In this document: one piece after another, positions 626 to 30,419 of the stretch
Position numbering within the stretch: position 1 is the stretch's first letter
How the letters are laid out: each line of letters starts with the position of its first letter
Assembly: GCA_029243005.1 (NCBI GenBank)
Contig: JAQWSV010000248.1
Span: 1-35,123, forward strand
Origin: Woeseiaceae bacterium
GTDB lineage: Bacteria > Pseudomonadota > Gammaproteobacteria > Steroidobacterales > Woeseiaceae
Direction of reading: 5' to 3'
Length of the DNA stretch: 35,123 bases
The notes under the pieces: model-generated
The model's input: only the letters and a program-made list of their open reading frames with translations
Told to the model about the DNA's origin: nothing
Database searches by the model: none
Made by a program: the position numbers and the translations under genes

Positions 626-1870
626 ATGCTGGATCGATTCGACAAGCAGCGCTTAGCCGCCTACATGCAGGTTATCCTGCTGGCGCTTGCTGCCTCAGTC
701 ATATACAGCGCACCCTATCTGCGCCAGCTGTTCAAGACCTCACTACTGGATGCGTTTTCGCTGACCGAAATGCAGCTCGGCAACCTGAGCACAATGTACG
801 CCATCTGTTCGATTATCTGTTACATCCCCGGGGGCTGGATTGCAGATCGGGTAGCGCCCCGCACCCTGGTCATCATCGCGCTGTTTACCAGCGCCGGCAC
901 GTATGCATGGTGGGCAACCATTCCGGGCTATTTCGAGCTACTGATTATCCACAGCCTATGGGGTGTAATCGGGGTGGGCATTCTCTGGGCAGCGATGTTC
1001 AAGCACCTTCGTTTGCTCGCCGGTGGCGATGACCAAGGACGGATGTTCGGCACGCTGGAAGGCACACGCGGACTGTTCGAAGCCATTCTTTTGACGGTGG
1101 CGACCTTCGTGTTCGGCCTGTTTGCAACCCGCAAGCTCGGCATGATCAATGTCATTATCATTTACACCGTTTTCGCCGCAGGACTCGGCGTCATCATGCT
1201 GTTCATGAAGGGCGTGTCGGGTAACAGCGACGATACCGCATCGGAAAAAATTCACCTGGCCGACGTGCTGCTGATCCTGAAGCAACCAACGATCTGGCTC
1301 CTGTGCGTCATCCTCACAGCCGTATATCACATCTTTTGGGCGACGATTGAATTCCCGAGTTTCGTGGAGACCGGCGGTTTCGCCATGCCGCTCGCAGCCG
1401 CCACGGCGCTGGGCGCGACGAAATTATGGATGCGGCCTTTCGGGGGTGTGTTTGCCGGCATGCTGGGCGATCAAATCGGCAATGTCCGCATGATGGAACT
1501 GCTTTTCATCGCCGGAATCATGGGTTGCGCCTATCTCGCACTCATTCCGACCACACCGGACCTCGCGTGGACCCTCTGGGTATTCATTTTTCCATTTGGC
1601 CTGCTGGCCTACGGGCTACGCGGCGTTTTCTGGGCATTGTTGTACGAATGTCCCGTGCCAACCCGCGTGCTGGGAACGGCGATCGGATTTATCTCAATTA
1701 TGGGTTACAGCTCCGATGCCTACATTCCCCAGGTCAGCGCCTACCTGCAAACGAACTATGACACCGGCCCCGCCTATCAACTCTTCTTTGCCTATGTAGG
1801 CTTTGCCGCAGTAATCGGCCTTATCGCCTCATGGAGGCTCGGCCGGATCACCCGGGCCAGAACACGATGA
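626..1870 (+). CDS. MFS transporter
   Basis: Multi-TM protein with [14 protein letters not shown] motif. The ORF track starts at 401, but [15 protein letters not shown] at 626 is the plausible start. The stop overlaps the next gene (ATGA). Confidence 0.8.
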
Positions 1871-3552
1871 GTGATTACGACTACATCGTTATTGGTGCCG
1901 GTTCCGCGGGCTGCGTGCTCGCTAATCGGCTCAGTGAAGACGCGGACACCCGCGTACTGCTCCTGGAAGCCGGCGGCTCGGACAACAGTATTTTCATTCG
2001 CATGCCGACGGCGTTGTCCATTCCGATGAATATGGACCGCTTCAACTGGGGCTTCGCGAGTGAGCCCGAACCCCACCTCGACGGTCGGCGCATAGACTGC
2101 CCCCGCGGGCGCGTGCTCGGCGGCTCCTCATCAATTAACGGCATGGTTTACGTGCGCGGCCACGCCTGCGATTTCGATGAGTGGCAAAAGGCCGGGGCCG
2201 CCGGCTGGGGCTACGCTGACTGCCTGCCCTATTTCAAAAAGTCCGAAACCTGGATGCTGGGAGAAGACACGTGGCGCGGTGGCGACGGCCCGCTCGGCAC
2301 GTGTAACGGCAACGAGATGAAAAATCCCCTGTATCGAGCATTCATCGAAGCAGGTATCGAGGCAGGGTATCCGTCGACTGACGACTGTAATGGCTATCAA
2401 CAGGAAGGCTTTGGTTCGATGCACATGACGGTCAGTGGCGGTGAGCGTTGCGCGACCTCGCGCGCGTACCTGGGGCCTGTGCAAAACCGAGCCAACCTGA
2501 ACGTCAAATCCGACGTCCTGGTCGAAAGGATCATTATGGACGGCAAGATAGCAACCGGCGTGACCTGGTCGAAGGGTGGTCGGCCCCAGCAGGCAAATGC
2601 AACTGCCGAGGTGATTGTCTGCGCTGGATCGATCGGTTCCCCGACGTTACTGCAACGATCGGGCATCGGCCCGGGTAATGTCCTGAAGGATGCCGGTGTG
2701 GACGTGGTCCACGATTTGCCCGGCGTCGGCGAAAACCTGCAGGATCACCTCGAAGTCTATTTCCAGTACCGGTGCAACATGCCCATAACCCTCAATTCGA
2801 AGATCGGGCTCCTCAGCAAGTTCATGATCGGCACGCGCTGGATACTGACGCGCTCCGGACTCGGCGCGACCAATCATTTCGAATCATGCGCCTTCATTCG
2901 TTCACGCGCTGGCGTTCGCTGGCCGGATATCCAGTTTCATTTCATGCCCGCCGCGATGCGTTACGACGGTCGTGCCGCCCTCGATGGCCACGGATTCCAG
3001 GTTCATGTCGGCCCGAACAAGCCGACCAGCCGTGGCAAGGTCCGGATTCGGGATGCCTGCACAGGCAGCAAGCCGCAGATTAACTTCAACTATCTCGAGA
3101 CGGAGCGAGATCGGAATGACTGGCGCACCTGCCTTCGACTGACGCGTGAAATTCTCGGTCAGCCGGCAATGGATGCGTACCGGGGCGATGAAATTCAGCC
3201 CGCGGTCGAACTCAGAGATGACAAGCATACCGATGCCTGGGTGCGACAAAACGTCGAAAGCGCTTACCATCCGTCGTGTACCTGCAAGATGGGCGCAGAC
3301 GACGACCCGATGGCTGTCCTCGACCCGCAGTGCCGAGTACGCGGTGTTGATAAATTGCGCGTCATCGACTCGTCGATTTTTCCGACGATCACCAACGGGA
3401 ATCTGAATGCACCGACGATCATGGTGGCCGAAAAAGGCGCAGACATCGTGCGTGGCCATGTTTTGAGCGGTGAAGACGTTGAACCCTGGATCGATCCGGA
3501 GTGGCAATCACGGCAACGCTCCGGTCCGGCGAAACGCGGCGACGTTACCTGA
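1867..3552 (+). CDS. betA: GMC oxidoreductase, choline dehydrogenase (BetA)-like
   Basis: [25 protein letters not shown] (FAD Rossmann), [54 protein letters not shown]. Closely resembles BetA along its length. Confidence 0.8.
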
Positions 3553-5073: not shown

Positions 5074-6198
5074 GTGACGGAAATTCTCTCAGTTGCAATC
5101 ATCATCACGACGCTGACGTCGCTCCTCATCGTCGCGCGCTGGCGTAACCTACGTTGCGAAGGACCATCTCCCGTTTCGCTTTTCACCTTTATTGCCATTC
5201 TGTTCACGTCTGGCCTAGACGTGGGACTGATCATGTTCCCGCTGGTCGACTTCGAGTCTTATGCCAACAACCCAGCATACGACTTTGCCAATCCCCTGGC
5301 ATTTGAGTTCGGCTTCTGGGGCTTTCTCGTCTGGGGTTTCTATTTCCTAACGACGTTCTACTTCTGCATCATTGAACCGAAACTGAAGCTATTTGAAGTT
5401 CCGGCGATCAAATTTACCAACAATGTCGTCATCGTCGGCACCTGCGCGTTCACCGGCTTTTTGTTCCTGCAATACCTGCCCAGTTACATCGACGGCATTT
5501 CGGACACGGCTCGATTCGGGCTCGTTGCGCTGGTGGTGCTGTTTGCTGCCATGTCGAGTACGCATATTCGTTTCGTCGCGATACTGAGTCTGTCGTCAAC
5601 ATGGGTTTTTTTCGCACTGATCGCCGGCGTGTGGCTGGTATCCGGCATGGGATTTGGCGGACTGGCGTCGTCCATGGCCAATATCGGCGAGTACTTCGGC
5701 AACATTCACCGCTTTGTGTTACCTGTTAGCGACTATCACCAGTTCTACCTGTACTGGTGGTTTGCATGGAGCATCATGATCGGCCAGTTCGTAGCGCGCT
5801 TCATTGGCGGGCTGAAGACCTGGCAGTTGTTACTCGCACTACTGATCGTACCGTCCATTCCGATCGCGATCTGGTTCTCGGTGCTTTACTACTATTTTTC
5901 CAGTGGTATCGCGATTCCGGACGCCTGGCGCATTGCAATGATCGTGGTCGGTGTGATCTTCGTCGTGAACTCGCTCGACTCACTGATGCGGCTGTACACC
6001 CAGAACCTCGGCTTGACGGTGGCACGTCTTGGTACCTGGCAGTACGTCACGGGCAACTGGACCGCTTTGTTCGGACTCGTATTGCTCTATCAGTTCACAC
6101 CGCTCGAGATCGAGTGGGTGGGCCTCGTCGTGATCGGCATCTACGCCGCAGTCTACGCACTGGTCTTCCGGCGGCGTGCCGATTTGTCCGCAGCCTAG
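5074..6198 (+). CDS. Divergent, shortened BCCT-like membrane protein
   Basis: 374 aa multi-TM. [29 protein letters not shown] aligns by eye with [30 protein letters not shown] of the BCCT at 11620-13170. [22 protein letters not shown] aligns with [23 protein letters not shown]. Confidence 0.6.
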   Translation: [374 protein letters not shown]

Positions 6199-7689: not shown

Positions 7690-8808
7690 TCAGGTGCTTT
7701 CCCACCGGTCTGTGCGTACTACCGCGCTGCGAACATCACCCTCTGCATCGATCGTTACCCGGGTTCCTGGCCTAATGTGAGGTGCATCGATCATGGCAAA
7801 AGCAATATTCGTCTCGTACTTCAACGACCAGACCTTAGACGTAACAAACCCTACTTTGGCGCCATTCTCGCTGAGGACGGGCCAATCCGAACGCATCGGT
7901 GCCATATCTTCGCCATCGATGAAAAGATTGACGAGCCGCCGAGATTCCCCTTTCTCGCGAACGCTGACAAGTGCGTCGCGACACATGTATTCGGCTTCCT
8001 TGTCGATATCGATGTAGCACTCCAGCGCCGCTTCAATCGGATTGGTGTCGATCGTCATGTCAGCACCATAAGACTTCAGGCCCGTCTCGATACGCTCGAT
8101 GAGATTAGGGGCGCCAGGCCCAACGTTGTACTTCTGGCCTACGCCCCAAAACAGATCCCAAAGCTCCTCGCCTCGCGACGAGTCCTGAAGGTAGACCTCA
8201 AAGCCCCCTTTACCGCTCCAGCCTGAGCGCGCGATCTTGACCGGCGTGCCGGCAACCGTTTCGTCAATAAACCAGAAAAAACGAATGTCCCGGGTATGCG
8301 CACCGACCACATCCGCCATGAGGTCATCCGCTTTTGGTCCCTGGATCGCAAGCGGACTGACATCGGGTTCGAACACCTTCACATCAAAGCCGCGACCATA
8401 GGCGATACCTTTTACCCAAAGACAAACATCGGAGTCGGCAATCGACAACCAGAAACGATCCTCAGCGAGCCGGAGAATAATAGGGTCATTTATGATGCCG
8501 CCGTACTCGTCACAAAGCGGCGCGTACAAACATTGTCCAACAGCACATTTGGAAATGTCCCGCGGGGTGATCAACTCGGTCAGGCGAAGGGCATCGGGAC
8601 CGACGATTTCGACTTGCCGCTGGCAGGCAACGTCCCAGAGCTGTACATGCTTGCAGAGGTGTTCGTACGACTTCTCGTAGGACTCGTACACCATCGGCAA
8701 AGTCATCTTATTGTACAGCGAGAAAAAGCTCGCACCATTCTCGATCGCCCGCTTCTCGTATGGGGACTTGCGCAGCCTGCGCGACAGGATCATAGGAACA
8801 GTCGACAT
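7690..8808 (-). CDS. dmdA: DmdA-like dimethylsulfoniopropionate demethylase (GcvT-fold aminomethyltransferase family)
   Basis: SRRLRKSPYE...LWDVACQRQVEIVGPDA, GGIINDPI, FDVKVFEPDVSPLAIQGPKADDLMA, ARSGWSGKGGFEVYL, IERIETGLKSYGADMT. This pattern is typical of DmdA proteins. Function is not provable from sequence alone. Confidence 0.65.
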   Translation of the reverse strand: MSTVPMILSRRLRKSPYEKRAIENGASFFSLYNKMTLPMVYESYEKSYEHLCKHVQLWDVACQRQVEIVGPDALRLTELITPRDISKCAVGQCLYAPLCDEYGGIINDPIILRLAEDRFWLSIADSDVCLWVKGIAYGRGFDVKVFEPDVSPLAIQGPKADDLMADVVGAHTRDIRFFWFIDETVAGTPVKIARSGWSGKGGFEVYLQDSSRGEELWDLFWGVGQKYNVGPGAPNLIERIETGLKSYGADMTIDTNPIEAALECYIDIDKEAEYMCRDALVSVREKGESRRLVNLFIDGEDMAPMRSDWPVLSENGAKVGFVTSKVWSLKYETNIAFAMIDAPHIRPGTRVTIDAEGDVRSAVVRTDRWEST

Positions 8809-11619: not shown

Positions 11620-13170
11620 TTAGAGCTCGTCACGGAGTCCGCGGTACAGGCCGATACACATCAGAAGCAGTACGATCCCGAATGGTAGTGCGATCGAGAT
11701 CGTCATCGACTGTAGCGACGCCATGCCACCGCCGAGCATCAGAGCCATGGCGACCAGTCCCGCCAGCACACACCAGAAAACGCGCTGCAGGACGGGGGTG
11801 TCCATCTTGCCACCCGCCGTGATCATGTCCATCACCAGCGACCCGGAATCAGCCGAGGTGATGAAGAAAATCGCGATCAAAAGAACGCTGACCGATGAGG
11901 CGATGCTGGTAAATGGCAGACCCTCGAGCATCCTGAAGAGTGCCAGCTCCGGAACCGAATCCGCGACGCCCCGGTAACCTTCAGTAAACAACTGGTCCAG
12001 CGCTGTCCCTCCAAACGTCGACATCCAGATCACACCAATGATCGTCGGAATGACCAACACCCAGGTGATGAACTCTCTGACCGTGCGTCCGTAACTGACG
12101 CGGGCGATGAACATGCCAACAAAGGGTGACCAGGAGATCCACCACGCCCAGTAGAACACGGTCCAGTCGCGCAGGAAAGCGGTATCCGGGCGGTCGATCC
12201 AGTTGCTTAAGCTCGGCAGGAATGTAGCGTAATCGAGAAACGACTGGAAGATTGTCGACAGGATGACCCAAGTCGGTCCGGCAATGAGCACGAACAACCA
12301 GAGGAGGCCTGCCATACCCATGTTGATCTCGCTCAATCGCTTGACACCTCGATCCAAGCCAGCAACAACAGAGACCAGCGCGATACCGATGATCGTTACA
12401 ATCAACAGGACTTTGGTCAGTTTACTGGCGGGAATCCCGAACAGGTAATTGAGACCCCCTGCGATCTGTTCCGCGCCAAACCCCAGAGAAACGGCCAGCC
12501 CGAACAGGGTGGCGAGCACGCCGACAACGTCGATGAAGTGTCCGATAGGGCCCCAAACGCGGGTACCAATGAGTGGGAAGAATGCCGACCGGAGCGTCAG
12601 CGGCATGCCGCGATTGAAACAGAAAAAGGCGAGTGCCAGCCCGACGATGCCGTAGATCGCCCAGGCGTGCAGTCCCCAGTGAAAAATTGCGGCGGACATA
12701 CCGGCCGCCCGTGCCGCTTCCGTCGCCGCCGGATCGACACCAACTGGTGTATTGATTGTATGGGTGACGGGCTCCAGGACGCCAAAGAACATCAGGCCAA
12801 TGCCGACACCCGCAGCAAACAGCATCGCGAGCCACCCCGGATATCCATAGCGCGGCTGCGCATCCTGCCCGCCAAGCCTGACACGTCCGAGACGCGACCA
12901 GGCCACGTAGAAACAGAATATGACCAGTACATTAGCCACGATCATGAAGAACCAGTCGAACGTGACCGTAATCCATGCCCGGACATCGGCGAACAGAACG
13001 GCGGCCTGCTCGAGAAAAAGCAGTGTGCCGAGCACGACCGTCACAGCCAGCACCGCCGACACCATGAAAACAGGGTTATGGATGTCGAGACCCATCATCT
13101 GGATGTTGTGTTCGCCGACCTCGTGGCCGATGTCCGTATTCGCGTCTTGCGTTGTTTCGTCGTTACTCAA
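11620..13170 (-). CDS. BCCT family betaine/choline/carnitine-type transporter
   Basis: GWLAMLFAAGVGIGLMFFGVLEPVTH, LFHWG-like IFHWGLHAWAIY, WTVFYWAWWISWSPFVGMFIARVSYGRTVREF, ITSADSGSLVMD. Confidence 0.92.
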   Translation of the reverse strand: MSNDETTQDANTDIGHEVGEHNIQMMGLDIHNPVFMVSAVLAVTVVLGTLLFLEQAAVLFADVRAWITVTFDWFFMIVANVLVIFCFYVAWSRLGRVRLGGQDAQPRYGYPGWLAMLFAAGVGIGLMFFGVLEPVTHTINTPVGVDPAATEAARAAGMSAAIFHWGLHAWAIYGIVGLALAFFCFNRGMPLTLRSAFFPLIGTRVWGPIGHFIDVVGVLATLFGLAVSLGFGAEQIAGGLNYLFGIPASKLTKVLLIVTIIGIALVSVVAGLDRGVKRLSEINMGMAGLLWLFVLIAGPTWVILSTIFQSFLDYATFLPSLSNWIDRPDTAFLRDWTVFYWAWWISWSPFVGMFIARVSYGRTVREFITWVLVIPTIIGVIWMSTFGGTALDQLFTEGYRGVADSVPELALFRMLEGLPFTSIASSVSVLLIAIFFITSADSGSLVMDMITAGGKMDTPVLQRVFWCVLAGLVAMALMLGGGMASLQSMTISIALPFGIVLLLMCIGLYRGLRDEL

Positions 13171-14410: not shown

Positions 14411-15955
14411 TTGAGCAGCAGGCCTAGAAGAAAAGGACGGGGTGCCGGCCGCGAGGCCAAGCGCGCCGCCAGACTGGCGGCGCCGGTAGCGGCAGCCGCC
14501 TACATCGATCGCAAGATTCCCTACTTTGATGTTCTGAACGACGAGGCGCTCGAGACTATCGAACACAACGCCGAGACAGTCCTCGAGGAAATCGGTATCG
14601 AGTTTCGGGATTTTCCGGAATCGCTCGAATTGTGGCGTAACGCTGGTGCGAATATTGACGGTGAACGCGTCCGCTTCCCCCGCGGTATGTGCCGCTCCAT
14701 TATCCAAGCATCGGCGCCGTCAGAATACACCCAGCATGCGCGGAACCCCGAGCGCAATGTCGTGATCGGCGGTGACCGGACCGTTCTGGTGCCGGCTTAC
14801 GGCCCGCCGTTCGTCCACGATCTCGACGGCGGCCGGCGTTACGCAACCCTCGAAGACTTCCGGAATTTCGTCAAGCTCGCCTACATGAGTCCGGGCATGC
14901 ACCACTCCGGCGGCACGGTCTGTGAGCCGGTGGATATCCCGGTCAACAAACGTCACTTCGACATGGTGTACAGCCACCTCAAATACAGCGACAAACCGTT
15001 CATGGGCTCGGTGACCCACCCGGAGCGCGCCGAGGACTCGGTAGCAATGGCCAAGATTGTCTTCGGCGACGACTTCGTCGAAGAAAATACGGTCATGACT
15101 AGCCTGATCAATGCCAACTCGCCGATGACCTTCGATTCGACCATGCTTGGCGCCGCAACTGTCTATGCCCGGCACAACCAAGCGACGATGATTTCGCCGT
15201 TCCTGCTGGCCGGCGCGATGTCGCCGGTTTCGGTCGCGGGCACCGTGACACAGATCCTGGCCGAGGCACTGGCGGGCATCGCCTATGTGCAGCTCGTAAG
15301 GCCGGGCGCGCCGGTGATCTTCGGCACCTTTGCAGCAGCCGTTTCGATGCAGTCGGGAGCACCGACTTTCGGCACGCCCGAGCCCAGCCTGATTCTCTAC
15401 GCTGCGGCGCAGCTCGCCCGTCGACTGGGACTACCGTTTCGCAGCGGTGGCGGCCTGTGCGGCTCGAAGATCCCAGATGCACAGGCGGCTTATGAGTCAG
15501 CCAACACCCTGCAAACTTCGGCGCTTGCCGGCGTAAACTTCATGTTGCACACCGCTGGCTGGCTGGAGGGTGGCCTCGCAATGGGATACGAGAAGTTCGT
15601 CATGGACGCCGATCAGGCGGAGATGATTGCGACCCTGCTCAGGGGCGTCGATATGAGCGAGGACGGTCAGGCGATGGATGCTCTCCGTGAAGTTGGACCC
15701 GGCGCCCATTTTCTCGGCTCCACGCACACCCAGGCGCATTTCGAAACCGCCTTCTATCGTTCCCGGATTGCCGACAACAACAGCTTCGAACAATGGGAAC
15801 TCGAGGGTTCTCTCGATGCCGCACAACGTGCCAACGGGCTTTGTAAGAAGATGCTCAACGACTACGAAGCCCCACCGCTCGATCCGGCCGTCGACGAAGC
15901 TTTGCTTGACTACGTTAAACAACGAAAATCAGAGTTCCCGGACCAGGACTACTGA
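14411..15955 (+). CDS. Trimethylamine methyltransferase (MttB/COG5598) family protein, non-pyrrolysine
   Basis: TTG start after GGAGGGGGG. EALETIEHNAETVLEEIGIEF, HHSGGTVCEPVDIP, GAPTFGTPEPSLILYAAAQLARRLGLPFRSGGGLCGSK. No in-frame TAG. Confidence 0.85.
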   Translation: MSSRPRRKGRGAGREAKRAARLAAPVAAAAYIDRKIPYFDVLNDEALETIEHNAETVLEEIGIEFRDFPESLELWRNAGANIDGERVRFPRGMCRSIIQASAPSEYTQHARNPERNVVIGGDRTVLVPAYGPPFVHDLDGGRRYATLEDFRNFVKLAYMSPGMHHSGGTVCEPVDIPVNKRHFDMVYSHLKYSDKPFMGSVTHPERAEDSVAMAKIVFGDDFVEENTVMTSLINANSPMTFDSTMLGAATVYARHNQATMISPFLLAGAMSPVSVAGTVTQILAEALAGIAYVQLVRPGAPVIFGTFAAAVSMQSGAPTFGTPEPSLILYAAAQLARRLGLPFRSGGGLCGSKIPDAQAAYESANTLQTSALAGVNFMLHTAGWLEGGLAMGYEKFVMDADQAEMIATLLRGVDMSEDGQAMDALREVGPGAHFLGSTHTQAHFETAFYRSRIADNNSFEQWELEGSLDAAQRANGLCKKMLNDYEAPPLDPAVDEALLDYVKQRKSEFPDQDY

Positions 15956-15967
15956 AGGAACACCAGC

Positions 15968-16549
15968 TTGTCCGACGAAGGTAATCGAAACATGACCAAG
16001 AAAGTCAGCTTCACGGCCATGGAGCATGGCGCTCAGGCCGACTATGACCTAATCATGGCGGAAGGGGAATCGAAAACCGATCAACTTGCTGATCGAGTTC
16101 TCGACTGGCTGCGGCAGCTCGATGGCGATTCCCCGTATCAGATCACCCGTCTGGGCCACAGTTTGCAGACGGCAACTCGTGCGGAACGTGACGGCGCTGA
16201 TGACGAGACCATCATCTGTGCACTGCTGCACGACATCGGGGACGTACTGGCGCCCGCGAATCACTCGCAGGTGGCCGCAGCGCTGCTCGCGCCTTATGTC
16301 AGTGAGAAGAATCACTGGATCATCAAGCACCACGGCATATTTCAGGGCTACTACTGGTTCCATTTCATCGGCGGCGACCGAGATGCGCGCGACCGATATC
16401 GGGACCACAAGCACTACCAAGCCTGCGCGGACTTCTGCGCAAACTGGGACCAGCCGTCGTTCGATCCAGACTATGACACCCTGCCGCTGGAGCACTTCGA
16501 GCCGAAAGTCCGGGCACTCTTTGCACAGGAGCCCCGGCCGTTCTTTTGA
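15968..16549 (+). CDS. HD-domain protein resembling PhnZ/COG4341-type diiron oxygenases
   Basis: YQITRLGHSLQTATRAERDGADDETIICALLHDIGD, HSQVAAALLAPYV, IIKHHGIFQGYYW, NWDQPSFDPDYDTLPLEHFEPKV. A spaced H...HD...H...H...D metal-ligand pattern. An alternative start is ATG at 15992. Confidence 0.7.
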   Translation: MSDEGNRNMTKKVSFTAMEHGAQADYDLIMAEGESKTDQLADRVLDWLRQLDGDSPYQITRLGHSLQTATRAERDGADDETIICALLHDIGDVLAPANHSQVAAALLAPYVSEKNHWIIKHHGIFQGYYWFHFIGGDRDARDRYRDHKHYQACADFCANWDQPSFDPDYDTLPLEHFEPKVRALFAQEPRPFF

Positions 16550-16668: not shown

Positions 16669-19140
16669 ATGGCAAATGACGGAATCAAATCGCATGCGCG
16701 TGTCGCAATTATTGGCGGCGGCGTCGTTGGCGTCAGCGCGCTCTATCACCTCGCCAAGAAAGGCTGGGGAGATGACGTGGTCCTCTTCGAGAAGGCGGAG
16801 CTGACGTCCGGCTCGACTTGGCATGCCGCCGGTCTGCTGCCTCTGTTCAATATGAGTTACAGCGTCGGCCAAGTGCACAAGTACTCAGTCAATCTGTATG
16901 GCGAACTCGAGGAGGAAACCGGTCAGCCGGTCGGCTTCGCGCGGGTTGGCAACCTGCGCCTCGCTATGAACGACGACCGGATGGACGAGTATTATCAGTA
17001 TGCTGCCACCGCCAAGACTATCGGTATCGACGTCCGCTTCCTGGCTCCCGAAGAAATCCTGAAGCTCTGGCCGATGTGCAATATCGAAGGTCTTGTGGGC
17101 GGGATCTTTCATCCGGACGATGGCTACATTCAGCCCGCTGACCTGACACAGGCACTGGCAAAGGGTGCACGTAACCGCGGCGCCACCATTTACCGCAACA
17201 CGCACGTGCTGAACCTCGAACAAACTTCGTCCGGTGCGTGGCTCGTGCAGACCGACAAGGGCGACATCACGGCAGAACACGTCATCAGTGCCACCGGCAA
17301 TTACGCGCGTAAGACCGGCGAGATGATCGGCCTCGATATTCCGGTGATTCCGGTCGAGCATCAATACATCGTTACCGAACCACACCCGGAACTCGTCAAC
17401 CGCCGCGAGGCGGGTGCTCCCGAGATGGGCGTCCTGCGCGAGTCCGACGGCTCATGGTATCTGCGCGAGGAGAACGGCGGCTTCATTCTCGGACCTTACG
17501 AGCATGGCGCGCCTGCCTGCTACGTGGACGGCCCGGACCCGCGCGCAGAGTACGAGCTGTTCCAGGAAGACATCGAACGACTCGCGCCGCATATCGAAGC
17601 GGCGATGAACCGTGTGCCAGCCTTTGCGGAGGTGGGTATCAAGCAATGCTACAACGGGGCGATCGCTTACACGCCGGACGGCAACCCGATCATCGGACCT
17701 GCCTGGGACGTCGACAATTTCTGGTTGAACGAAGGCCACAGTTTCGGCATTACCGCTGCCGGTGGAGCGGGCTGGCAGCTTGCGGAATGGATCGTTGAAG
17801 GTGAGCCCACGATCGACATGCTCGGCGTCGAACCCAGACGGTTCGGTGACTATGCGACGAAGGAATATCTGGTCGAGAAGAATGAAGAGGCGTATGCACA
17901 CGTATTCGTCATTCATTATCCCGATGAAGAACGACCGGCCGCCCGTCCACTGCGCACGGCGCCCTGCTACGAGCGCATGAAAGATCTCGGCGCCGTATTC
18001 GGTCAGAGATTCGGCTGGGAACGGCCTAACTTCTTTGCGACCGATGGTATGCCGCAGGAGGACGACTGGTCGTTTCGCCGCTCGAGGTGGTTTGAAGCGG
18101 TTTGCAAGGAAGTCGCCAACACGACAGAAAACGTCGGCCTGCTGGATATGACTGCATTCGCGAAGTGCCGGGTTTCTGGACTTGGTGCCGCCGCCTTTCT
18201 TGACAGTTTCGTCGCCAACAATTTGCCGGCCAAAGACGGCGGACTGGTGCTCGCTCATGCACTGAACCAGAACGGCGGTATACATTCCGAGTTCACGATC
18301 CGGGGCGAATCCGCGAATTCCTATTACCTGGTCTCCGCCGGTGCATTGCAGCGCCTGGATCACGACTATCTCAAGAAACACATGCCGGACGATGGTTCGG
18401 TGCAATTCGAGAACCTGACCGACTCCATCGGCGTCCTGGTCGTGGCCGGACCGAAGTCGCGTCAGCTACTTGAACGGGTGACTGACACCGATTTTTCGAA
18501 CGACGCCTTCCGCTGGCTGACAGCCCAGGACATCGTCATTGCCGGGGCCGAAGTCAACGCGATGCGGGTCAATTATGTCGGCGAGCTTGGTTGGGAACTG
18601 CATCATCCGATAGAAGAACAGAATCAGATTTTCGATGCGCTTATGGAAGCAGGAGCGGACCTGAGCCTGAAGCCATTTGGTATACGGGCGATGGACTCGA
18701 TGCGTTACGAAAAGTCCTATCGTATGGTAGGCACGGAGCTTTCCATCGAGTATTCCGCCTACGAATCCGCAATGGACCGGTTCATCAAGCCTGATAAAGG
18801 CAATTTCCTTGGCAGGGAGGCGTTACTTGCCTGGCAGGAACGCGGCCACGACAACATGCTGGTGACGCTCGAAGTCTCAGGCATCGAGGATGCCGATGCG
18901 CTCGGCAACAATGCCCTGACCAAAGATGGCGAGCTCGTCGGCAGAGCAACCGGCGGCAATTACGGTTTCCGTATCGGCAAGTCACTGGCACTGAGCATGG
19001 TGCGGCCCGACCTCGCCGAACCCGATACTACCCTGGAAATCGACATTCTGGGTAAGAACTACCCGGCGACAGTCACCATTGAAAGTCCGTTTGACCCGAA
19101 TCAGGAGCGGCTAAGAGATGTCAATGGCGCAAACGGATAA
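16669..19140 (+). CDS. FAD-dependent dimethylglycine/sarcosine dehydrogenase-type protein (DAO + GcvT domains)
   Basis: RVAIIGGGVVGVSALYHLAKKG, ELTSGSTWHAAGLLP (His of covalent-FAD type), C-terminal GcvT fold (RVNYVGELGWELHHPIEEQNQIFDALMEAG). Confidence 0.85.
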   Translation: MANDGIKSHARVAIIGGGVVGVSALYHLAKKGWGDDVVLFEKAELTSGSTWHAAGLLPLFNMSYSVGQVHKYSVNLYGELEEETGQPVGFARVGNLRLAMNDDRMDEYYQYAATAKTIGIDVRFLAPEEILKLWPMCNIEGLVGGIFHPDDGYIQPADLTQALAKGARNRGATIYRNTHVLNLEQTSSGAWLVQTDKGDITAEHVISATGNYARKTGEMIGLDIPVIPVEHQYIVTEPHPELVNRREAGAPEMGVLRESDGSWYLREENGGFILGPYEHGAPACYVDGPDPRAEYELFQEDIERLAPHIEAAMNRVPAFAEVGIKQCYNGAIAYTPDGNPIIGPAWDVDNFWLNEGHSFGITAAGGAGWQLAEWIVEGEPTIDMLGVEPRRFGDYATKEYLVEKNEEAYAHVFVIHYPDEERPAARPLRTAPCYERMKDLGAVFGQRFGWERPNFFATDGMPQEDDWSFRRSRWFEAVCKEVANTTENVGLLDMTAFAKCRVSGLGAAAFLDSFVANNLPAKDGGLVLAHALNQNGGIHSEFTIRGESANSYYLVSAGALQRLDHDYLKKHMPDDGSVQFENLTDSIGVLVVAGPKSRQLLERVTDTDFSNDAFRWLTAQDIVIAGAEVNAMRVNYVGELGWELHHPIEEQNQIFDALMEAGADLSLKPFGIRAMDSMRYEKSYRMVGTELSIEYSAYESAMDRFIKPDKGNFLGREALLAWQERGHDNMLVTLEVSGIEDADALGNNALTKDGELVGRATGGNYGFRIGKSLALSMVRPDLAEPDTTLEIDILGKNYPATVTIESPFDPNQERLRDVNGANG

Positions 19141-19546
19141 CAAAACGGGCGGCTGCCTTTGCGGTGCTATCCGGTACGAAATCGACGGACCGCTGAAGAA
19201 AGTCGTGTACTGTCATTGCGAGCAGTGCCGCAAGTCCAACGGGCACTTCGTCGCGGCGACGTCGGTTGCCCATAAATACCTGCATATTGAGGGAGGCTCG
19301 AACCTGACCTGGTTCCAGTCTTCCGATATAGCGAGACGCGGTTTTTGCAACGTTTGTGGCTCGAGTCTTTTCTGGGAACCGTCCCACGGCAAGTACATGG
19401 GCGTCTGGGCGGGCACGATCGATGCACCGACAGGGCTGACCAGTCACGAGCATATCTATGTCGACGACGCGTCGGACTACTATGAGGTGACCGACGGCCT
19501 GCCGCAGTTTCCGCAGGACCACCCGGACCTGTGGGAAGACAACTGA
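19118..19546 (+). CDS. GFA (glutathione-dependent formaldehyde-activating enzyme/CENP-V domain) family protein
   Basis: [37 protein letters not shown] ... [14 protein letters not shown]; zinc-binding Cys pattern. Overlaps the upstream gene by 23 nt. Confidence 0.85.
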
Positions 19547-19548
19547 GG

Positions 19549-20796
19549 ATGAAATATTCAGCACTAAACCTCGTCCGCAATGCTTTCAGTCATAACAGGA
19601 ACTGGAAGGAAGCCTGGCGCAGTCCTGAACCAAAGAAGGAATATGACGTCATCATCGTTGGCGGCGGCGGTCACGGACTCGCCACAGCGTATTACCTGGC
19701 GAGAGAGCACAACGTGGGCAACATCGCGGTCCTGGAGAAGGGCTGGATAGGCGGCGGCAATACAGGACGCAACACGACCATCGTTCGCTCGAACTACCTG
19801 TGGACCGAAGCGTCGCTGCTGTACGAGAAGTCGATGCAACTGTGGGAAGGGCTCAGCCAGGATCTGAACTACAACGTCATGTTCAGCCAGCGCGGCGTCT
19901 ACAATCTCGGCCACACGTTGCAGGACATGCGCGACATCGAACGTCGCGTGAACGCCAACCGCCTGAACGGTATCGATGCTGAAGTCGTTACCGCAAAACA
20001 AATCAAGAAAGATATCCCGCTGATCAATACGTCGCCGGATGCACGCTACCCGATCCTGGGCGCATCGCTGCAGCCGCGCGCCGGTGTCGCGCGTCACGAT
20101 GCCGTGGCGTGGGGATTCGCGCGCGCCGCTGACCAACTGGGCGTCGACATCATCGAACAATGCGAAGTCACCGGGGTTAATCGTAACGGCAGCACGGTGA
20201 CCGGCGTCGAGACTACCCGCGGCACGATCAAAGCGAAAAAAGTCGGCGTCGTCGTCGCCGGTAATGCGAGCGTGGTCGCGTCGATGGCCGGACTGCGGCT
20301 GCCCATCGAAAGCCACCCGTTGCAGGCCTATGTGTCGGAACCATTGAAGCCGGTGCTCGATACGGTGGTCATGTCGAACGCCGTGCATGGCTATGTCAGT
20401 CAGTCTGACAAGGGCGAGCTCGTCATCGGCGCGGGCATCGATGCCTACAACGGCTACGGGCAGCGCGGCAGCTTCTCGACCATCGAGCATGCGATGCAGG
20501 CAATCCTCGAACTGTTCCCGATGTTCAGTCGCGTACGCATGCTCAGGATGTGGGGTGGCATCGTCGACGTCTGCCCGGATGCCTGTCCGATCATCAGCAA
20601 GACGCCCGTCGACGGTCTCTACTTCAATTGCGGCTGGGGTACCGGCGGGTTCAAAGCCACACCCGGGTCCGGATGGGTGTTCGCGCATACAATCGCAGAG
20701 GACCGGCCGCACGAATTGAATCAACCGTTCAACCTGCAGCGCTTCGAAACCGGTGCCCTGATCGACGAGCACGGCGCTGCCGCGGTGGCCCACTGA
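19549..20796 (+). CDS. soxB: Sarcosine oxidase beta subunit
   Basis: [105 protein letters not shown]. Confidence 0.93.
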
Positions 20797-21068
20797 TGTT
20801 CCTGATCGAATGCCCCTGGTGTGGTGAGCGCGCCGAGACCGAGTTCAGCTACGGCGGCGAAGGCGGCATCACGCGCCCCGCCGAGCCTGACAAGCTGAGC
20901 GATGCCGAGTGGGCGAACTACCTGTTCATGCGCACTAATCCCCGGGGGGCGCACCAGGAACTATGGAATCATGCGCAAGGGTGCCGGCGCTGGTTCGGAG
21001 TCGAACGCGACACGGTGACCTACCACATCTCGCGGAGCTATGTGCTCGGCGATGGCGTAAAGGACTGA
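20796..21068 (+). CDS. soxD: Sarcosine oxidase delta subunit
   Basis: [23 protein letters not shown]...RPAEPDKLSDAEWANYLFMRTNPRGAHQELWNHAQGCRRWFGVERDTVTY. ATG overlaps the soxB stop. Confidence 0.93.
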   Translation: MFLIECPWCGERAETEFSYGGEGGITRPAEPDKLSDAEWANYLFMRTNPRGAHQELWNHAQGCRRWFGVERDTVTYHISRSYVLGDGVKD

Positions 21069-21077
21069 CGGACTCGC

Positions 21078-24056
21078 ATGCAGGTCAATCGACTCGACAA
21101 AGGTGGGCGTATCGATCGCTCGAAGCCGCTGAAGTTCCGCTTCAACGGCAAGTCCTATGAGGGCTATGCCGGCGATACACTGGCGTCAGCCCTGCTCGCC
21201 AACAACGTGTCACTGATCAATCGCAGTTTCAAACTACATCGGCCACGCGGCATCATAGGCAGCGGTGCCGAGGAACCCAACGCCATTCTGCAGATTGGCA
21301 AAGGCGCGCATACCCTGCCCAATCGCCGCGCGACGCAAGTTGCGCTGCAGGAAGGCCTGGTCGCGCGCTCGACGAAAGGCTGGCCGGGTGTCCGCTTCGA
21401 TATTGGCGCAATCAATGACGTTTTTTCGAGATTGTTCAGCGCCGGCTTCTACTACAAGACCTTTATGTTTCCACAGTCCCTCTGGAACCTTTACGAAGAC
21501 CTCATTCGAGGCTCTGCGGGCTTCGCGAAGGCGCCGAAGAAGCCGGACCCAGACCGCTACGAACACATCAATGCACACTGCGACATACTGGTCGCCGGCG
21601 CAGGTCCGGCCGGTTTGATGGCGGCATTGGCTGCAGCACGTTCCGGGGCGAGAGTCATCCTGGCAGACGAAGGTACCGAGGCTGGCGGCGCATTGCTTCG
21701 CAGCGACGAAATCATCGACGGCAGACCGGCCACCAACTGGGTTGAAACCATTGCGACCGAAATCAGGGGCTATGAAGACGTCACGGTTCTGAAGAACAGC
21801 ACCGTGTTCGGCTATTTCGCACAGAACTTCCTCACCATAACCGAGCGGACCGAAGGCCCGATCCGACAACGCGAGTGGCGGGTGCGTGCGCGCCAGGTGG
21901 TTCTCGCACAGGGTGCAATCGAGCGGCCGCTGATCTTTTGCAATAACGATCGTCCCGGCGTCATGCTGGCATCGGCAGTATCCGAATACATCCGACGATA
22001 TGCAGTATTGCCCGGCAAGCGTGCCGTTGTGTTTACCAACAACGACGCCGCTTACCAGGCAGCGCTTGACCTGCATTCGGCCGGCGCCACGATTGCGGCA
22101 ATCGTCGACAGCCGCAGGACAGGTGCCGGCGACCTCGGCGAACAGGCCAAGGCGGCGGGTATACCGGTCATGCCTGGACACATCGTGACCAACGTCAGTG
22201 GCAGGAAGCGCGTCACGGGCGTGAAGATCGCGACTTGGGACGGCGCGACGGAAGGCATGGTCGATGAGTCCATCGACATCGCCTGTGACCTTGTCACAAT
22301 GTCGGGCGGCTATAGCCCGGCCGTGCACCTGCATTCACAGTCCGGGGCGAAGAATGCCTGGGACGACTCGTTGAGTTGCTTCGTTCCCGGTGAAGCCGTG
22401 CAGGCTTGTGAGTCCGCGGGTGCAGGTAATGGTCGTTGGTCTTTACGGGACTGCCTGGAAGATGGTGCCCGGGCCGGCAAGGTCGCGCTCGCGAAAGCAG
22501 GCTTCGACATGCCCGACATCGCCGTTCCAGCAGCCTCTTCGCAGGCCGTGAAGCCGCTGGAACCGCTGTGGCGTGTCCCCGCGGCACAGGATCCGGACCG
22601 CTGTCCCAAGCAGTTCCTCGATTTCCAGAACGACACAAGTGTCGCCGATGTCCGGCTGGCCGTCCGCGAAGGCTATCGCAACATCGAACATGTCAAACGC
22701 TACACGGCACTCGGCTTCGGTACCGACCAGGGCAAGCTGGGCAACATCAATGGCATGGCGGTTCTGGCCGAGGCGCTGGGCATGTCCATTCCCGAGGTCG
22801 GTACGACCACCTTTCGACCACCCTACACGCCGGTGTCCTTCGGCGTCTGCGCTGGCGAAAGTGTCGGCGAGCTCTACGACCCGGTTCGCAAAACCGCCGT
22901 CCACGAGTGGCATGAGTCAAGCGGTGCAGAATTTGAGAACGTCGGCCAGTGGCACAGGCCCTGGTACTTTCCGCTGCCGGGCGAAGACCTGGACGCGGCG
23001 GTAGCCCGCGAATGTCTCGCCACGCGCAAGTCGCTCGGCATCCTCGACGCGTCGACGCTCGGCAAGATCGACGTACAGGGTCCTGATGCCGTCACGTTCC
23101 TCGAACGGATCTACACGCATAACGTCGGCAAGATGCAAAATGGTCGCTGCGCCTACGGCATCATGCTCGGTGAAGACGGCATGGTCATGGACGATGGCGT
23201 CATGGCACGACTCGGCGATAACCGCTTTTACCTGACGACCACCACCGGTGGTGCGGCGGCCGTGCTCGGCTGGCTTGAGTCCTGGTTACAGACCGAGTGG
23301 CCGGAACTCGAGGTCTATCTCACTTCGATCACGGATCAGTATTCGACGATCGCCGTTGCCGGCCCGAATAGCCGGCGGCTCTTGCACAAGCTCAGCTGCA
23401 GTGTCGATCTCGGCAACGAGAACTTCCCGTTTATGAGTGTGCACGATGCAGAACTCGCTGGCATACCGGTACAACTGTTCCGCGTCAGCTTTTCCGGCGA
23501 GCTGGCCTTCGAAGTCAACGTAGACAGCAACCATGCCCTGCCCCTGTGGCAGACCTTGATGGACGCCGGTGAGGAGTTCGACATTACCCCGTACGGCACC
23601 GAAACCATGCACGTACTGCGCGCTGAGAAGGGCTTTGTCATTGTCGGCCAGGACACCGATGGCTCGGTGACACCCATCGATCTCAACATGAACTGGATGC
23701 TGTCAAAGGAGAAAGACTACCTTGGGAAGCGTTCGCTATCGCGACCCGATTGCCTGCGGACGGATCGTAAGCAACTCGTCGGCTTGCTGTCAGAGGACAA
23801 CACAACAGTTATTCCCGAGGGTGCGCAGCTGATCGAAGACCTGTCAGCGCCGGAGCCGGTCCCGATGCTGGGTCACGTGTCGTCGAGTTACATGAGTGCC
23901 TGCCTTGGCCATCCGATCGCGCTGGGACTGGTTGCCGGCGGCTGGAATCGGAAGGACGAAGTCGTCTACGCATGGGCCGCTGGATGCGAACCCATCCGCG
24001 CCCGGATCGTGTCACCGGTCTTTTACGATCCCAGGAACGAGCGGCAAAATGACTGA
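21078..24056 (+). CDS. soxA: Sarcosine oxidase alpha subunit (FAD/NAD-binding + GcvT domains)
   Basis: N-terminal Fer2-like segment FRFNGKSYEGYAGDTLASALLANN, CDILVAGAGPAGLMAALAAARSGARVILADE, C-terminal GcvT domain (LGILDASTLGKIDVQGPDAVTFLERIYTHNVGKM). Confidence 0.95.
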   Translation: MQVNRLDKGGRIDRSKPLKFRFNGKSYEGYAGDTLASALLANNVSLINRSFKLHRPRGIIGSGAEEPNAILQIGKGAHTLPNRRATQVALQEGLVARSTKGWPGVRFDIGAINDVFSRLFSAGFYYKTFMFPQSLWNLYEDLIRGSAGFAKAPKKPDPDRYEHINAHCDILVAGAGPAGLMAALAAARSGARVILADEGTEAGGALLRSDEIIDGRPATNWVETIATEIRGYEDVTVLKNSTVFGYFAQNFLTITERTEGPIRQREWRVRARQVVLAQGAIERPLIFCNNDRPGVMLASAVSEYIRRYAVLPGKRAVVFTNNDAAYQAALDLHSAGATIAAIVDSRRTGAGDLGEQAKAAGIPVMPGHIVTNVSGRKRVTGVKIATWDGATEGMVDESIDIACDLVTMSGGYSPAVHLHSQSGAKNAWDDSLSCFVPGEAVQACESAGAGNGRWSLRDCLEDGARAGKVALAKAGFDMPDIAVPAASSQAVKPLEPLWRVPAAQDPDRCPKQFLDFQNDTSVADVRLAVREGYRNIEHVKRYTALGFGTDQGKLGNINGMAVLAEALGMSIPEVGTTTFRPPYTPVSFGVCAGESVGELYDPVRKTAVHEWHESSGAEFENVGQWHRPWYFPLPGEDLDAAVARECLATRKSLGILDASTLGKIDVQGPDAVTFLERIYTHNVGKMQNGRCAYGIMLGEDGMVMDDGVMARLGDNRFYLTTTTGGAAAVLGWLESWLQTEWPELEVYLTSITDQYSTIAVAGPNSRRLLHKLSCSVDLGNENFPFMSVHDAELAGIPVQLFRVSFSGELAFEVNVDSNHALPLWQTLMDAGEEFDITPYGTETMHVLRAEKGFVIVGQDTDGSVTPIDLNMNWMLSKEKDYLGKRSLSRPDCLRTDRKQLVGLLSEDNTTVIPEGAQLIEDLSAPEPVPMLGHVSSSYMSACLGHPIALGLVAGGWNRKDEVVYAWAAGCEPIRARIVSPVFYDPRNERQND

Positions 24057-24612
24057 GTGGCACGAAAAACGACACGGCCTTGAGCAGCGCATCGCGGACT
24101 GGACTTCGCGCACAGGCTTCACGATCTCGGTTCGCGACGATCTCGGACACCTGAATCTCCGCGGCGATCTGGGCAGCCCGGGCTTCCTAGCAGCGGCTGA
24201 GGAAACCATTGGCCAACCGTTGCCGCAGGCGCCAAATACAATTTCAGATGGCGATTCCACGATATTCTGGCTGGGGCCCGATGAGTGGCTCATCCTTACT
24301 CCCGCGGAAAAGGCCGCCAACCTGGCCGACCAGCTCGAATCGTCGCTTTCAAACCAGCATGCGGCCACGAACAACGTCAGTGGGGGGCAGATTGCCCTAA
24401 CATTGACCGGCGAACGGGTACGCGAGGTGCTCGCCAAGGGCTGCGCGCTAGATTTTCACCCACAGGTGTTCACAGAAGGCCGGTGCGCGCAAAGTGGACT
24501 GGCCAGGGCCAATGTCACGATCGGCAGCATTGGCGGTGACAACAAATTCCTGGTCATTGTCAGGCGCAGTTTCGCAGACTATCTGCTCGCCTGGCTTGAT
24601 GGCGTCGCATGA
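24049..24612 (+). CDS. soxG: Sarcosine oxidase gamma subunit
   Basis: Overlaps soxA by 8 nt. FWLGPDEWLILTPAEKAANL, NNVSGGQIALTLTGERVREVLAKGCALDFHPQVFTEGRCAQSGLARANVTI. Confidence 0.9.
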   Translation: MTEWHEKRHGLEQRIADWTSRTGFTISVRDDLGHLNLRGDLGSPGFLAAAEETIGQPLPQAPNTISDGDSTIFWLGPDEWLILTPAEKAANLADQLESSLSNQHAATNNVSGGQIALTLTGERVREVLAKGCALDFHPQVFTEGRCAQSGLARANVTIGSIGGDNKFLVIVRRSFADYLLAWLDGVA

Positions 24613-24683: not shown

Positions 24684-25682
24684 ATGGCGAGTGGGAAGCC
24701 TGAATTAAACCCGACCCGGTTCGGGTTCTTTCTACTCAATAATTTCACGCTGATGTCGATGACATCGGCTGTCGAACCTCTACGCCTCGCCAACCGCTAC
24801 GTTCGGGGAACACATTTCGAGTGGAAACTGTTCTCGCTGGACGGTCAACCAGTCACGGCAAGTAATGGTGCTGCAATGGCCGTCGATTCTACTCTGCGGG
24901 ACATCGATACGATTCGGCAACTCGACCTGATGATCATCTGTGGTGGAGAAGGCATCAGCGAGCACGTCACCGAAGGCACAATCAAGGAATTACGAGCGCT
25001 TTCCACAACCGGCATCGCACTGGGCGCAGTTTGTACGGGAAGTAATACCCTGGCCACTGCCGGCTTGCTCGATAATTATCACTGCAGCGTCCACTGGGAG
25101 AATATTGCGGCGCTGACCGACCAATTTCGTGATGTCCATGTGACGCGCAGTATCTATACCGTCGACCGGGATCGATACACCTGTTCAGGAGGTACCGCGC
25201 CGATCGACATGATGCTGTCAATCATTCGCAAACAACTCGGCCCTGATGTCAGCGCATACGTTGCAGAGCAACTAGTATACGGCTATGTGCGCCAGGCCGA
25301 CGAAGACCAGCGTATTCCGCTGCGGCATGTAATCGGCGGTCAATCGGAAAAACTGGTCACGGCTGTGGAACTGATGGAGGCGAATATCCGGGAGCCGATC
25401 GACCAGGGCGAACTCGCCGGATACGTTGGTCTGTCGCGTCGCCAGCTACAGCGCCTTTTCGACCAACACCTGCAATGCACGCCTTCGCGCTATTACCTGC
25501 AAATCCGTCTTGCAAGGGCGCGTGAGCTGCTCTGCCAGACGGGGATGGGGCTTGTTGAAATTTCATCTCTGACCGGCTTCGTGTCGACGTCGCATTTCAG
25601 CAAATCCTACAAAGAGCGTTACGGATGCCCGCCGAGCAGCGAGCGGCGGATAAGCACAAACACTAGTAGACGGACAATTTGA
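24684..25682 (+). CDS. GlxA/GbdR-type AraC-family transcriptional regulator (DJ-1/PfpI + HTH)
   Basis: FGFFLLNNFTLMSMTSAVEPLRLANR, GAVCTGSNTLATAGLLDNYHCSVHWEN, C-terminal AraC HTH (LAGYVGLSRRQLQRLFDQHLQCTPSRYYLQIRLARARELL). Confidence 0.88.
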   Translation: MASGKPELNPTRFGFFLLNNFTLMSMTSAVEPLRLANRYVRGTHFEWKLFSLDGQPVTASNGAAMAVDSTLRDIDTIRQLDLMIICGGEGISEHVTEGTIKELRALSTTGIALGAVCTGSNTLATAGLLDNYHCSVHWENIAALTDQFRDVHVTRSIYTVDRDRYTCSGGTAPIDMMLSIIRKQLGPDVSAYVAEQLVYGYVRQADEDQRIPLRHVIGGQSEKLVTAVELMEANIREPIDQGELAGYVGLSRRQLQRLFDQHLQCTPSRYYLQIRLARARELLCQTGMGLVEISSLTGFVSTSHFSKSYKERYGCPPSSERRISTNTSRRTI

Positions 25683-28901: not shown

Positions 28902-30419
28902 ATGGAACATAAGAGGATCGACAAACCGGCGTTTATCTCGAGCGTCGCTATCATTGTGCTTGCCTGCGTGCCACTCGTTTTGTTTCCAGAGGCGGCCGGC
29001 GAGGCCCTTCGGTCACTCTATAACTACATCGCCCAGGAATACGGCGTTATCTTCCTGCTGGCCAGCGTCGGGGCCAATGCATTCCTGATTTGGCTCGCAC
29101 TCAGCCGCTTCGGGCATACGCGACTGGGGGGCAACGCCGATAAACCCGAGTTCGACACAGTCAGCTGGATCGCAATGTTGTTCTGCGCCGGAATTGGCGG
29201 TGGCCTGATTTACTGGTGTGGCACCGAGTGGGCATTTTATTACCAGTCGCCGCCCTTCGGGGTTGAGCCCTACACCGCTGAAGCAGCGGAATGGGCGTCG
29301 ACGTATGGCCTGTTTCACTGGGGCTTCACAGCCTGGGCATTCTATTGCTTACCGACGCTGGCGATCGGCTATCCCTATTACGTCCGCAAAATGGACCACA
29401 TGCGCTTCAGCATCGGCTGCAGTCATTACCTAAAAGGCCGGGAAGTTGGGCCGTTGGCACGTTTCATCGACTTTCTCTTCATCATCGCCATGGTCGGCGG
29501 TGCCGCGACATCGCTCGGTTTCTCGACGCCGATGATTGCCGCCTGTATCTCGTGGCTGTTCGGCATCGAGAACAACTTCACGCTCGAAGTCAGTGTAATG
29601 CTCCTTTGCCTGACGCTGTTTGCCACAAGTGTATGGCTAGGCCTGCGCAAGGGTATTCGGACACTCAGCGACGTCAATCTCAGAATCAGCGTCGTCCTGC
29701 TGTTGTTCATCCTCGTCGTCGGACCGACCGCCTTCCTACTCAAGACCAGCCTAAATGGTGTTGGCCTGATGATCCAGAATCTCGTCCGTATGAATTTCTG
29801 GTCCGACCCCTTCACTGATTCCGGCTTCGTTGAAAACTGGACCGTCTTTTACTGGGCCTGGTGGATCGCGTTCGCGCCGTACGTGGGGATGTTCGTCGCG
29901 CGCATTTCACAGGGAAGAACAATCCGGCAGATCATTGTCGGCATGCTCGTCTTTGGCTCACTGGGTTGCTGGGTGTTCTACATGATCATCGGCAACTACG
30001 CGTTGTTCCTCGAACTGGAGGGCGTCGTTATCAGCACACAGATCATCAATGAACAAAACCAGAGTGCCGCGATTGTCGCCGTGCTTGGTCAGTTGCCGAT
30101 GCCCGCCATTGTGATCGGCATTTTCTGCACGATGGCAATCATATTCGTGGCGACTACCTATGACTCTGCCTCGTACACGCTCGCTTCCAGTGCGACTTTA
30201 CATCTGCCCGCCGGTGACGACCCATCGCGCGGCCATCGTGTCTTCTGGGCGTTTGCATTAGGTGCTCTTCCGATCACTTTGCTGTTCATCGGCGGACTTC
30301 AGGTCATGCAGGTAGTTTTGCTGATCGTGTCGGTACCAATTCTGATCGTCGGTATATTTATGTGTGTTTCACTGGTCCGCTCGTTACAGGAGGATCAGCC
30401 AAAATATCATCCACCGTAA
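28902..30419 (+). CDS. BCCT family transporter, CaiT-like subgroup
   Basis: WIAMLFCAGIGGGLIYWCGTEWAFYYQSPPFGVEP, LFHWGFTAWAFY...YYVRKMDHMR, WTVFYWAWWIAFAPYVGMFVARISQGRTIRQ, YDSASYTLASSAT. Confidence 0.92.
   Translation: MEHKRIDKPAFISSVAIIVLACVPLVLFPEAAGEALRSLYNYIAQEYGVIFLLASVGANAFLIWLALSRFGHTRLGGNADKPEFDTVSWIAMLFCAGIGGGLIYWCGTEWAFYYQSPPFGVEPYTAEAAEWASTYGLFHWGFTAWAFYCLPTLAIGYPYYVRKMDHMRFSIGCSHYLKGREVGPLARFIDFLFIIAMVGGAATSLGFSTPMIAACISWLFGIENNFTLEVSVMLLCLTLFATSVWLGLRKGIRTLSDVNLRISVVLLLFILVVGPTAFLLKTSLNGVGLMIQNLVRMNFWSDPFTDSGFVENWTVFYWAWWIAFAPYVGMFVARISQGRTIRQIIVGMLVFGSLGCWVFYMIIGNYALFLELEGVVISTQIINEQNQSAAIVAVLGQLPMPAIVIGIFCTMAIIFVATTYDSASYTLASSATLHLPAGDDPSRGHRVFWAFALGALPITLLFIGGLQVMQVVLLIVSVPILIVGIFMCVSLVRSLQEDQPKYHPP

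Follow-up and report, generated by a model that had tools for sequence, protein, structure and literature searches.

The window, by which we mean the whole 35,123-nucleotide stretch of Woeseiaceae bacterium DNA analysed here, is, as judged by family matches, a choline/glycine betaine catabolic region, in which genes for MttB, dimethylglycine dehydrogenase (DMGDH), SoxBDAG, BCCT transport and a GbdR-type regulator are all present. Its left part carries genes of choline dehydrogenase BetA (1831..3552, + strand; TIGR01810, 773.5 bits, cut-off 732) and of a BCCT betaine/carnitine/choline transporter (11620..13170, − strand; Pfam BCCT, E 3e-175; TIGR00842 over cut-off). Also found here are a 374-aa open reading frame (ORF) with a partial weak BCCT match (5074-6198, +; 2.6e-8), possibly a divergent or truncated transporter, and, within this betaine gene region, a gene of the DMSP demethylase DmdA (7690-8808, −; 440.6 bits, cut-off 410). 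The gene at 14411..15955 (+) codes for an MttB superfamily protein (Pfam MTTB, E 6.9e-234) of the non-pyrrolysine type, as it scores below the pyrrolysine TMA-methyltransferase cut-off; by analogy (PMC12478193) and from the surrounding genes, it is a probable MtgB-like glycine betaine methyltransferase.

Further downstream, all on the + strand, there are genes of a DMGDH-like protein with Pfam DAO and GCV_T domains (16669..19140), a glutathione-dependent formaldehyde-activating (GFA) domain protein (19118..19546; Pfam, 3.6e-23) and the heterotetrameric sarcosine oxidase: SoxB, beta (19531..20796; TIGR01373, 728 bits, cut-off 529), SoxD, delta (ORF 20550..21068; Pfam SoxD, 3.6e-36), SoxA, alpha (21078..24056; TIGR01372, 1394 bits, cut-off 1164) and SoxG, gamma (ORF 23896..24612; Pfam SoxG, 2e-28). 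Since the SoxD and SoxG domains span residues 85-164 and 89-235 of their ORFs, the true starts must lie nearer to 20800 and 24160, respectively. They are followed by a GbdR-like AraC regulator of the glycine betaine/dimethylglycine-responsive type (24684..25682; NF052371, 405.7 bits, under the cut-off of 480) and a second full-length BCCT transporter (28902..30419; Pfam BCCT, 2.5e-151). No phosphonate gene was identified in the window.

Between the MttB and DMGDH-like genes, where the initial annotation had placed it, is an ORF for an HD-domain protein (15968-16549, +; 193 aa counted from TTG), ~36 bases past the MttB stop codon and ~120 bases ahead of the DMGDH-like gene; all motifs quoted from it earlier are found there. 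The gene likely starts at ATG 15992, because the conserved N-terminus of its relatives (MxxKVxFTxM) points to this codon; residue numbers below count from the TTG. On sequence, profile and fold evidence, the product of 15992..16549 is probably a mixed-valent diiron oxygenase belonging to a non-phosphonate clade. It has the full PhnZ-type set of six predicted diiron ligands: H64 (GHSLQ), H88 and D89 (LLHDIGD), H99 (NHSQ), H122 (the second His of KHHG) and D161 (NWDQ). We aligned, column by column with PhnZ/TmpB relatives, 117 family members drawn from the window's genus, a scan of 80 loci, plasmids and random genomes, and found the six ligands identical in every one of the 117. Since, in addition, PhnZ and TmpB come first in both sequence and fold searches, the pattern is not due to chance. 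The Asp of SFDPDYD, D166, is conserved in its own right and is not part of the six-ligand set.

Among NCBIfam families, the best match of the HD protein is TIGR03276 Phn-HD (5e-10), followed by PhnZ1 (1e-7) and TmpB (1e-6), and all scores stay far below the curated cut-offs (39 bits against 215, 31 against 300 and 29 against 300 for TIGR03276, NF052439 and NF049941). When the single sequence was compared with PDB sequences, PhnZ (3.6e-6) and TmpB (0.0018) were retrieved and nothing else credible; with a profile of 58 relatives the values became 1e-10 and 1.7e-8, the next match being a dNTPase at 0.1. The AlphaFold2 model, built from the window sequence and fetched relatives, is confident (pLDDT 96.2, pTM 0.90), and its sole Foldseek matches in the PDB at E<0.001 are PhnZ (5e-7, TM 0.68) and TmpB (1.6e-5), while myo-inositol oxygenase (MIOX) is found at E 0.11 and hydrolases are weaker. 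Because PhnZ and TmpB lead in profile and fold searches alike, the protein very probably belongs, as the initial annotation had proposed, to the oxygenase branch of the HD superfamily and is not a phosphohydrolase; the 2-oxoglutarate oxygenase/HD gene pairs of relatives, described below, also support this. A 2020 review lists only three HD-domain oxygenases as characterised, namely MIOX, PhnZ and TmpB (PMC8177086).

The substrate pocket is different. In PhnZ and TmpB, the Glu of a YxxE motif contacts the amino group of the substrate (PMC8177086). This gating Tyr/Glu pair, to which the initial annotation had drawn attention, is not present in the window protein, which has a gap in the Tyr column and Y57 in the Glu column. 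Across the family, the Tyr column is variable or gapped and the Glu column is Tyr or Phe in 114 of 117 members, which could place an aromatic side chain opposite an ammonium group. The pocket positions were compared with 12 phosphonate-type outgroups (TmpB-/PhnZ-like loci with TmpA and PhnY partners, TIGR03276 types and three further relatives), in which phosphonate-type residues are kept in 11-12 of 12. HDxG is followed by Asp in 114/117 members and by His in 11/12 outgroups. The Lys of HxxxKR (12/12 outgroups) is replaced by Gln in all 117 members; the pattern used in the 80-locus scan, HG[LI]FQGY, favours Gln, and profile-found loci from randomly drawn genomes also have it. An Arg three positions before the last Asp ligand occurs in 12/12 outgroups and in 0/117 members, and the QGG loop, likewise conserved in 12/12 outgroups, is missing from 117/117. 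We take this Lys, this Arg and the QGG loop to be the phosphonate binders in PhnZ structures.

With these residues replaced or missing, the substrate is probably not a phosphonate, and the loss of the YxxE Glu, Lys, Arg and QGG-loop residues sets the family apart as a separate clade. In the tree, phosphonate types form one clade (support 99/91), and the window protein falls outside it, grouped with glycine-betaine- and TauD-linked members in a clade of 33 rows (100/98). On scores, pocket residues and the tree, TmpB, PhnZ and TIGR03276 were all rejected as orthologues. The earlier designation "PhnZ-type" therefore holds for the fold and the diiron ligand set and fails for the substrate pocket. 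The family was present in 59 of 399 sampled Pseudomonadota genomes; as far as sequence comparison can tell, it is a large uncharacterised clade of PhnZ/TmpB-fold HD proteins found in ~15% of them. A second HD protein of the same superfamily (259 aa) is encoded at 1180-1959 (−) of contig C314 of the window's own genome; its N-terminus resembles a twin-arginine signal (MDRRKFLNTVSV...), many members of the genus carry related copies, and export would be unusual for an HD oxygenase-like protein.

Genes adjoining the HD gene were examined next, with codon bias and six-frame profile searches used for gene calling in GC-rich loci. In most of the window's wider clade, a TauD/TfdA gene lies directly upstream, overlapping or abutting the HD gene, and in more than 20 loci overall the HD gene directly follows a TauD/BBOX/TmpA-like gene of the same strand. 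This gene order is the layout of TmpA-TmpB and PhnY-PhnZ. Such pairs also occur beyond the window's clade, in SAR324 loci (L042, L043) and a Pseudomonas aeruginosa plasmid (L104), and in three of the random-sample genomes (G568, G500, G340). A DmdA-like gene was seen near two TauD-HD pairs (L034, L035). The partner is similarly close to gamma-butyrobetaine dioxygenase (BBOX; PDB E 1e-36) and to TmpA (9e-35), and scores 209-257 bits, under cut-offs of ~400. The partner in the window's clade keeps the Fe and 2-oxoglutarate residues, and its BBOX cage is changed (Y177F, W181H, Y194H, Y205F), as is the TmpA FNNR motif (to FSNQ), which makes both gamma-butyrobetaine and TMAEP less likely as its substrate. 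Gamma-butyrobetaine in particular is doubtful, as W181 and Y194 of the trimethylammonium cage are replaced by His.

No TauD partner was found elsewhere in the window's own genome (85% complete), nor among the members of its genus that were searched, which keep the HD gene alone. Carnitine dehydrogenase homologues are present in 6/8 members of the genus and absent from 4/5 TauD-bearing genomes, a distribution that is suggestive only. The window itself contains a gene of a PhyH-family (2-oxoglutarate) oxygenase (30358-31179, −; ~13.8 kb from the HD gene, no NCBIfam match), whose ~60-72% identical copies are found in five other genomes of the family; it is kept in only some genomes of the genus, does not adjoin the HD gene, and is a possible alternative hydroxylase partner.

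Wider gene context links the family to quaternary amines repeatedly. In near relatives, the DMGDH-like protein (78-90% identical in near loci where found) adjoins the HD protein. Glycine betaine clusters with the HD gene occur in gamma- and alphaproteobacterial lineages; the alphaproteobacterial members, which fall elsewhere in the tree, lie beside GbdR, SoxBDA and often MttB genes. In one genus of the random sample, the HD gene immediately precedes that of carnitine 3-dehydrogenase (595.9 > 592) in 6/6 genomes; the operon also contains CaiA- and CaiD-like genes, and a GbdR-like regulator is encoded divergently. On the P. aeruginosa plasmid, the TauD-HD pair is followed by genes of a choline substrate-binding protein (over cut-off), choline dehydrogenase and an aldehyde dehydrogenase. 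Further genes in three related loci (L023, L025, L026) are those of an ASKHA-type protein, a methyltransferase-like protein and SdaA, named by sequence inspection rather than by family search. In SAR86 (L047, L050, L061, L068, L071, L090), a conserved thioesterase-HD-DUF3089-alpha/beta hydrolase block is found.

As glycine betaine, carnitine or choline genes recur around the family, the quaternary-amine substrate that had been suggested earlier gains support from context, and we hold it, with moderate confidence, to be the substrate of the HD protein. The recurrence also probably marks an extra route into the betaine breakdown pathway. We found nothing on an HD oxygenase in betaine or carnitine catabolism in the literature searched. 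The most serious alternative, though an unlikely one, is a diiron oxygenase acting on a polyol, a hydroxy acid or a lipid-derived alcohol, the betaine context being one setting of several. Most random-sample loci, drawn from the 59 positive genomes, have no betaine, carnitine or choline genes nearby, and part of the glycine-betaine association stems from closely related genomes. A class II aldolase/adducin gene neighbours the HD gene in 15 loci (L105, L065, L067, L095, L217, L242 and others), sometimes overlapping it, a hint that these enzymes have a second use; in L228 the HD gene is flanked by beta-oxidation genes. Since many members have aldolase, lipid or unrelated genes as neighbours, the family may also have substrates other than quaternary amines, and its ancestral substrate may have been of another kind. 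What argues against a non-amine substrate is that the betaine, carnitine or choline markers fall in separate parts of the tree, supported branches forcing at least five changes of this label, and that TmpA/BBOX-like partners recur.

Returning to a quaternary-amine substrate, we consider it on balance probable, by a modest degree, that the HD protein is a PhnZ/TmpB-fold mixed-valent (FeII/FeIII) diiron oxygenase which, by breaking a C-C bond in a hydroxylated quaternary or tertiary amine, feeds MttB, DMGDH and SoxBDAG. From the fold, the ligand set, the pocket change and the gene coupling we infer the metal, the use of O2, the substrate and the product. In many relatives, the upstream TmpA/BBOX-like 2-oxoglutarate oxygenase would first add the hydroxyl; as this partner is missing in the window's genus, the HD enzyme there would take a pre-hydroxylated compound, imported or produced by a different hydroxylase. 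If it works as PhnZ, TmpB and MIOX do (PMC8177086), the substrate hydroxyl would chelate one iron of the mixed-valent pair and O2 would bind the other; a superoxo species would then abstract the C-H beside the hydroxyl, and the adjacent bond would break in a four-electron oxidation. Of the C-N or C-C cleavage proposed earlier, C-N cleavage found no specific support, and C-C cleavage stands as the more natural analogue. Given the loss of phosphonate-type residues and the aromatic residue at the Glu site, the most economical candidate for cleavage is a C-C bond in a hydroxylated betaine.

The products may be glycine betaine and a small oxidised fragment; MttB, DMGDH and SoxBDAG would then take over the amine-side part, whether glycine betaine itself or a close intermediate. 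That C-C cleavage yields glycine betaine is a tentative proposal, short of probable, and we put forward more tentatively still that an undescribed, widespread clade has moved away from phosphonates and works together with a TmpA-like hydroxylase to break a C-C bond in a hydroxylated betaine, either carnitine-like or a 2-hydroxy analogue, giving glycine betaine. Carnitine would be one candidate substrate; another would be 2-hydroxy-3-(trimethylammonio)propanoate, the carboxylate counterpart of the compound on which TmpB acts, and a third a vicinal diol made from carnitine, which MIOX-type chemistry could split into glycine betaine and glyoxylate. Amine C-C cleavage has to be weighed against the aldolase, lipid and unrelated neighbours of many members, the HD gene without a partner in the window's genus, and the loss of much of the BBOX cage in the gammaproteobacterial partner, which speaks against gamma-butyrobetaine itself.

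Other readings fare worse. An ordinary HD-domain phosphohydrolase of the nucleotidase type would fit the HD superfamily membership (Pfam gives HD alone, E 1.2e-5) and the label "phosphohydrolase" that one plasmid record gives a family member, but it is improbable: characterised hydrolases with solved structures match far more poorly by both fold and sequence profile, the six-ligand dinuclear set is invariant, and 2-oxoglutarate oxygenase genes are paired with the HD gene. Slightly less probable again is a TmpB-type phosphonate oxygenase converting hydroxylated trimethylaminoethylphosphonate to glycine betaine and phosphate. PhnZ and TmpB are the closest solved structures and the partner oxygenase of L232 scores above the cut-off for TmpA (422 > 400), but the HD protein scores 28.7 against 300 for TmpB and 31.2 against 300 for PhnZ, all 117 family members have lost the residues shared by phosphonate types, the phosphonate types form a clade of their own, and the window lacks an identified phosphonate gene. 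A hydratase/lyase on the HD scaffold (Ddi2-like) or a non-catalytic accessory protein is very improbable, since, although HD-domain lyases exist, the terminal Asp ligand absent in Ddi2 (PMC8177086) is invariant here, as are all catalytic ligands.

We regard the interpretation in the initial annotation as partly supported and sharpen it to a probable new clade of PhnZ-like oxygenases, not a PhnZ, tied to quaternary-amine catabolism. If amine C-C cleavage is correct, HD-oxygenase chemistry would extend beyond phosphonates and inositol, and glycine betaine release from a hydroxylated betaine would be an O2-dependent entry into betaine catabolism without CoA and without a C-P bond. Betaines are a large pool of marine organic nitrogen, and the clade could add an aerobic step to their turnover. 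Databases would call this protein a phosphohydrolase; an iron-dependent, oxygen-using, bond-cleaving enzyme looks likelier, and genes of these clusters that are annotated "HD domain-containing protein" or "phosphohydrolase" would then be misread. Ocean phnZ counts could be inflated if non-phosphonate HD genes are included, which could explain part of the spread of published abundances, from <1% to ~20% of genomes (PMC10574752).

Among known systems, MtgBCDE glycine betaine demethylation of marine bacteria resembles the window in its MttB-superfamily gene and setting; a term search of that paper (PMC12478193) returned no HD protein and no 2-oxoglutarate partner. Myo-inositol oxygenase (PDB 2HUO) is an HD-domain diiron C-C cleaving oxygenase with the reaction type proposed here, but it is a weak fold match (E 0.11, TM 0.52) and differs in size and pocket. 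TIGR03276, the phosphonate degradation HD-domain oxygenase family, is the best NCBIfam match over the HD motif region, whereas its members keep the Lys/Arg/QGG set and several lie beside phosphonate genes. PhnZ (PDB 4N6W, 4MLM, 4MLN, 4N71) has the same ligand pattern and is the best fold match, and the PhnY-PhnZ gene pairing, seen in L113, is like the TauD-HD pairing; however, the pocket replacements set PhnZ apart too, PhnY is of the PhyH type while the HD partner is of the TauD/BBOX type, and C-P cleavage by the HD family is not expected. TmpB ((R)-1-hydroxy-2-trimethylaminoethylphosphonate oxygenase, PDB 6NPA) is only ~20% identical to the window protein and belongs to a different clade, with HDIGH in place of HDIGD; relative to it, the HD family has an aromatic residue for the YxxE Glu, Gln for the Lys of HxxxKR, and neither the Arg nor the QGG loop. 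The fold and the six diiron ligands are nevertheless common to both, and TmpB, like many members of the HD family, is encoded directly downstream of a TmpA/BBOX-family 2-oxoglutarate oxygenase and has a link to glycine betaine.
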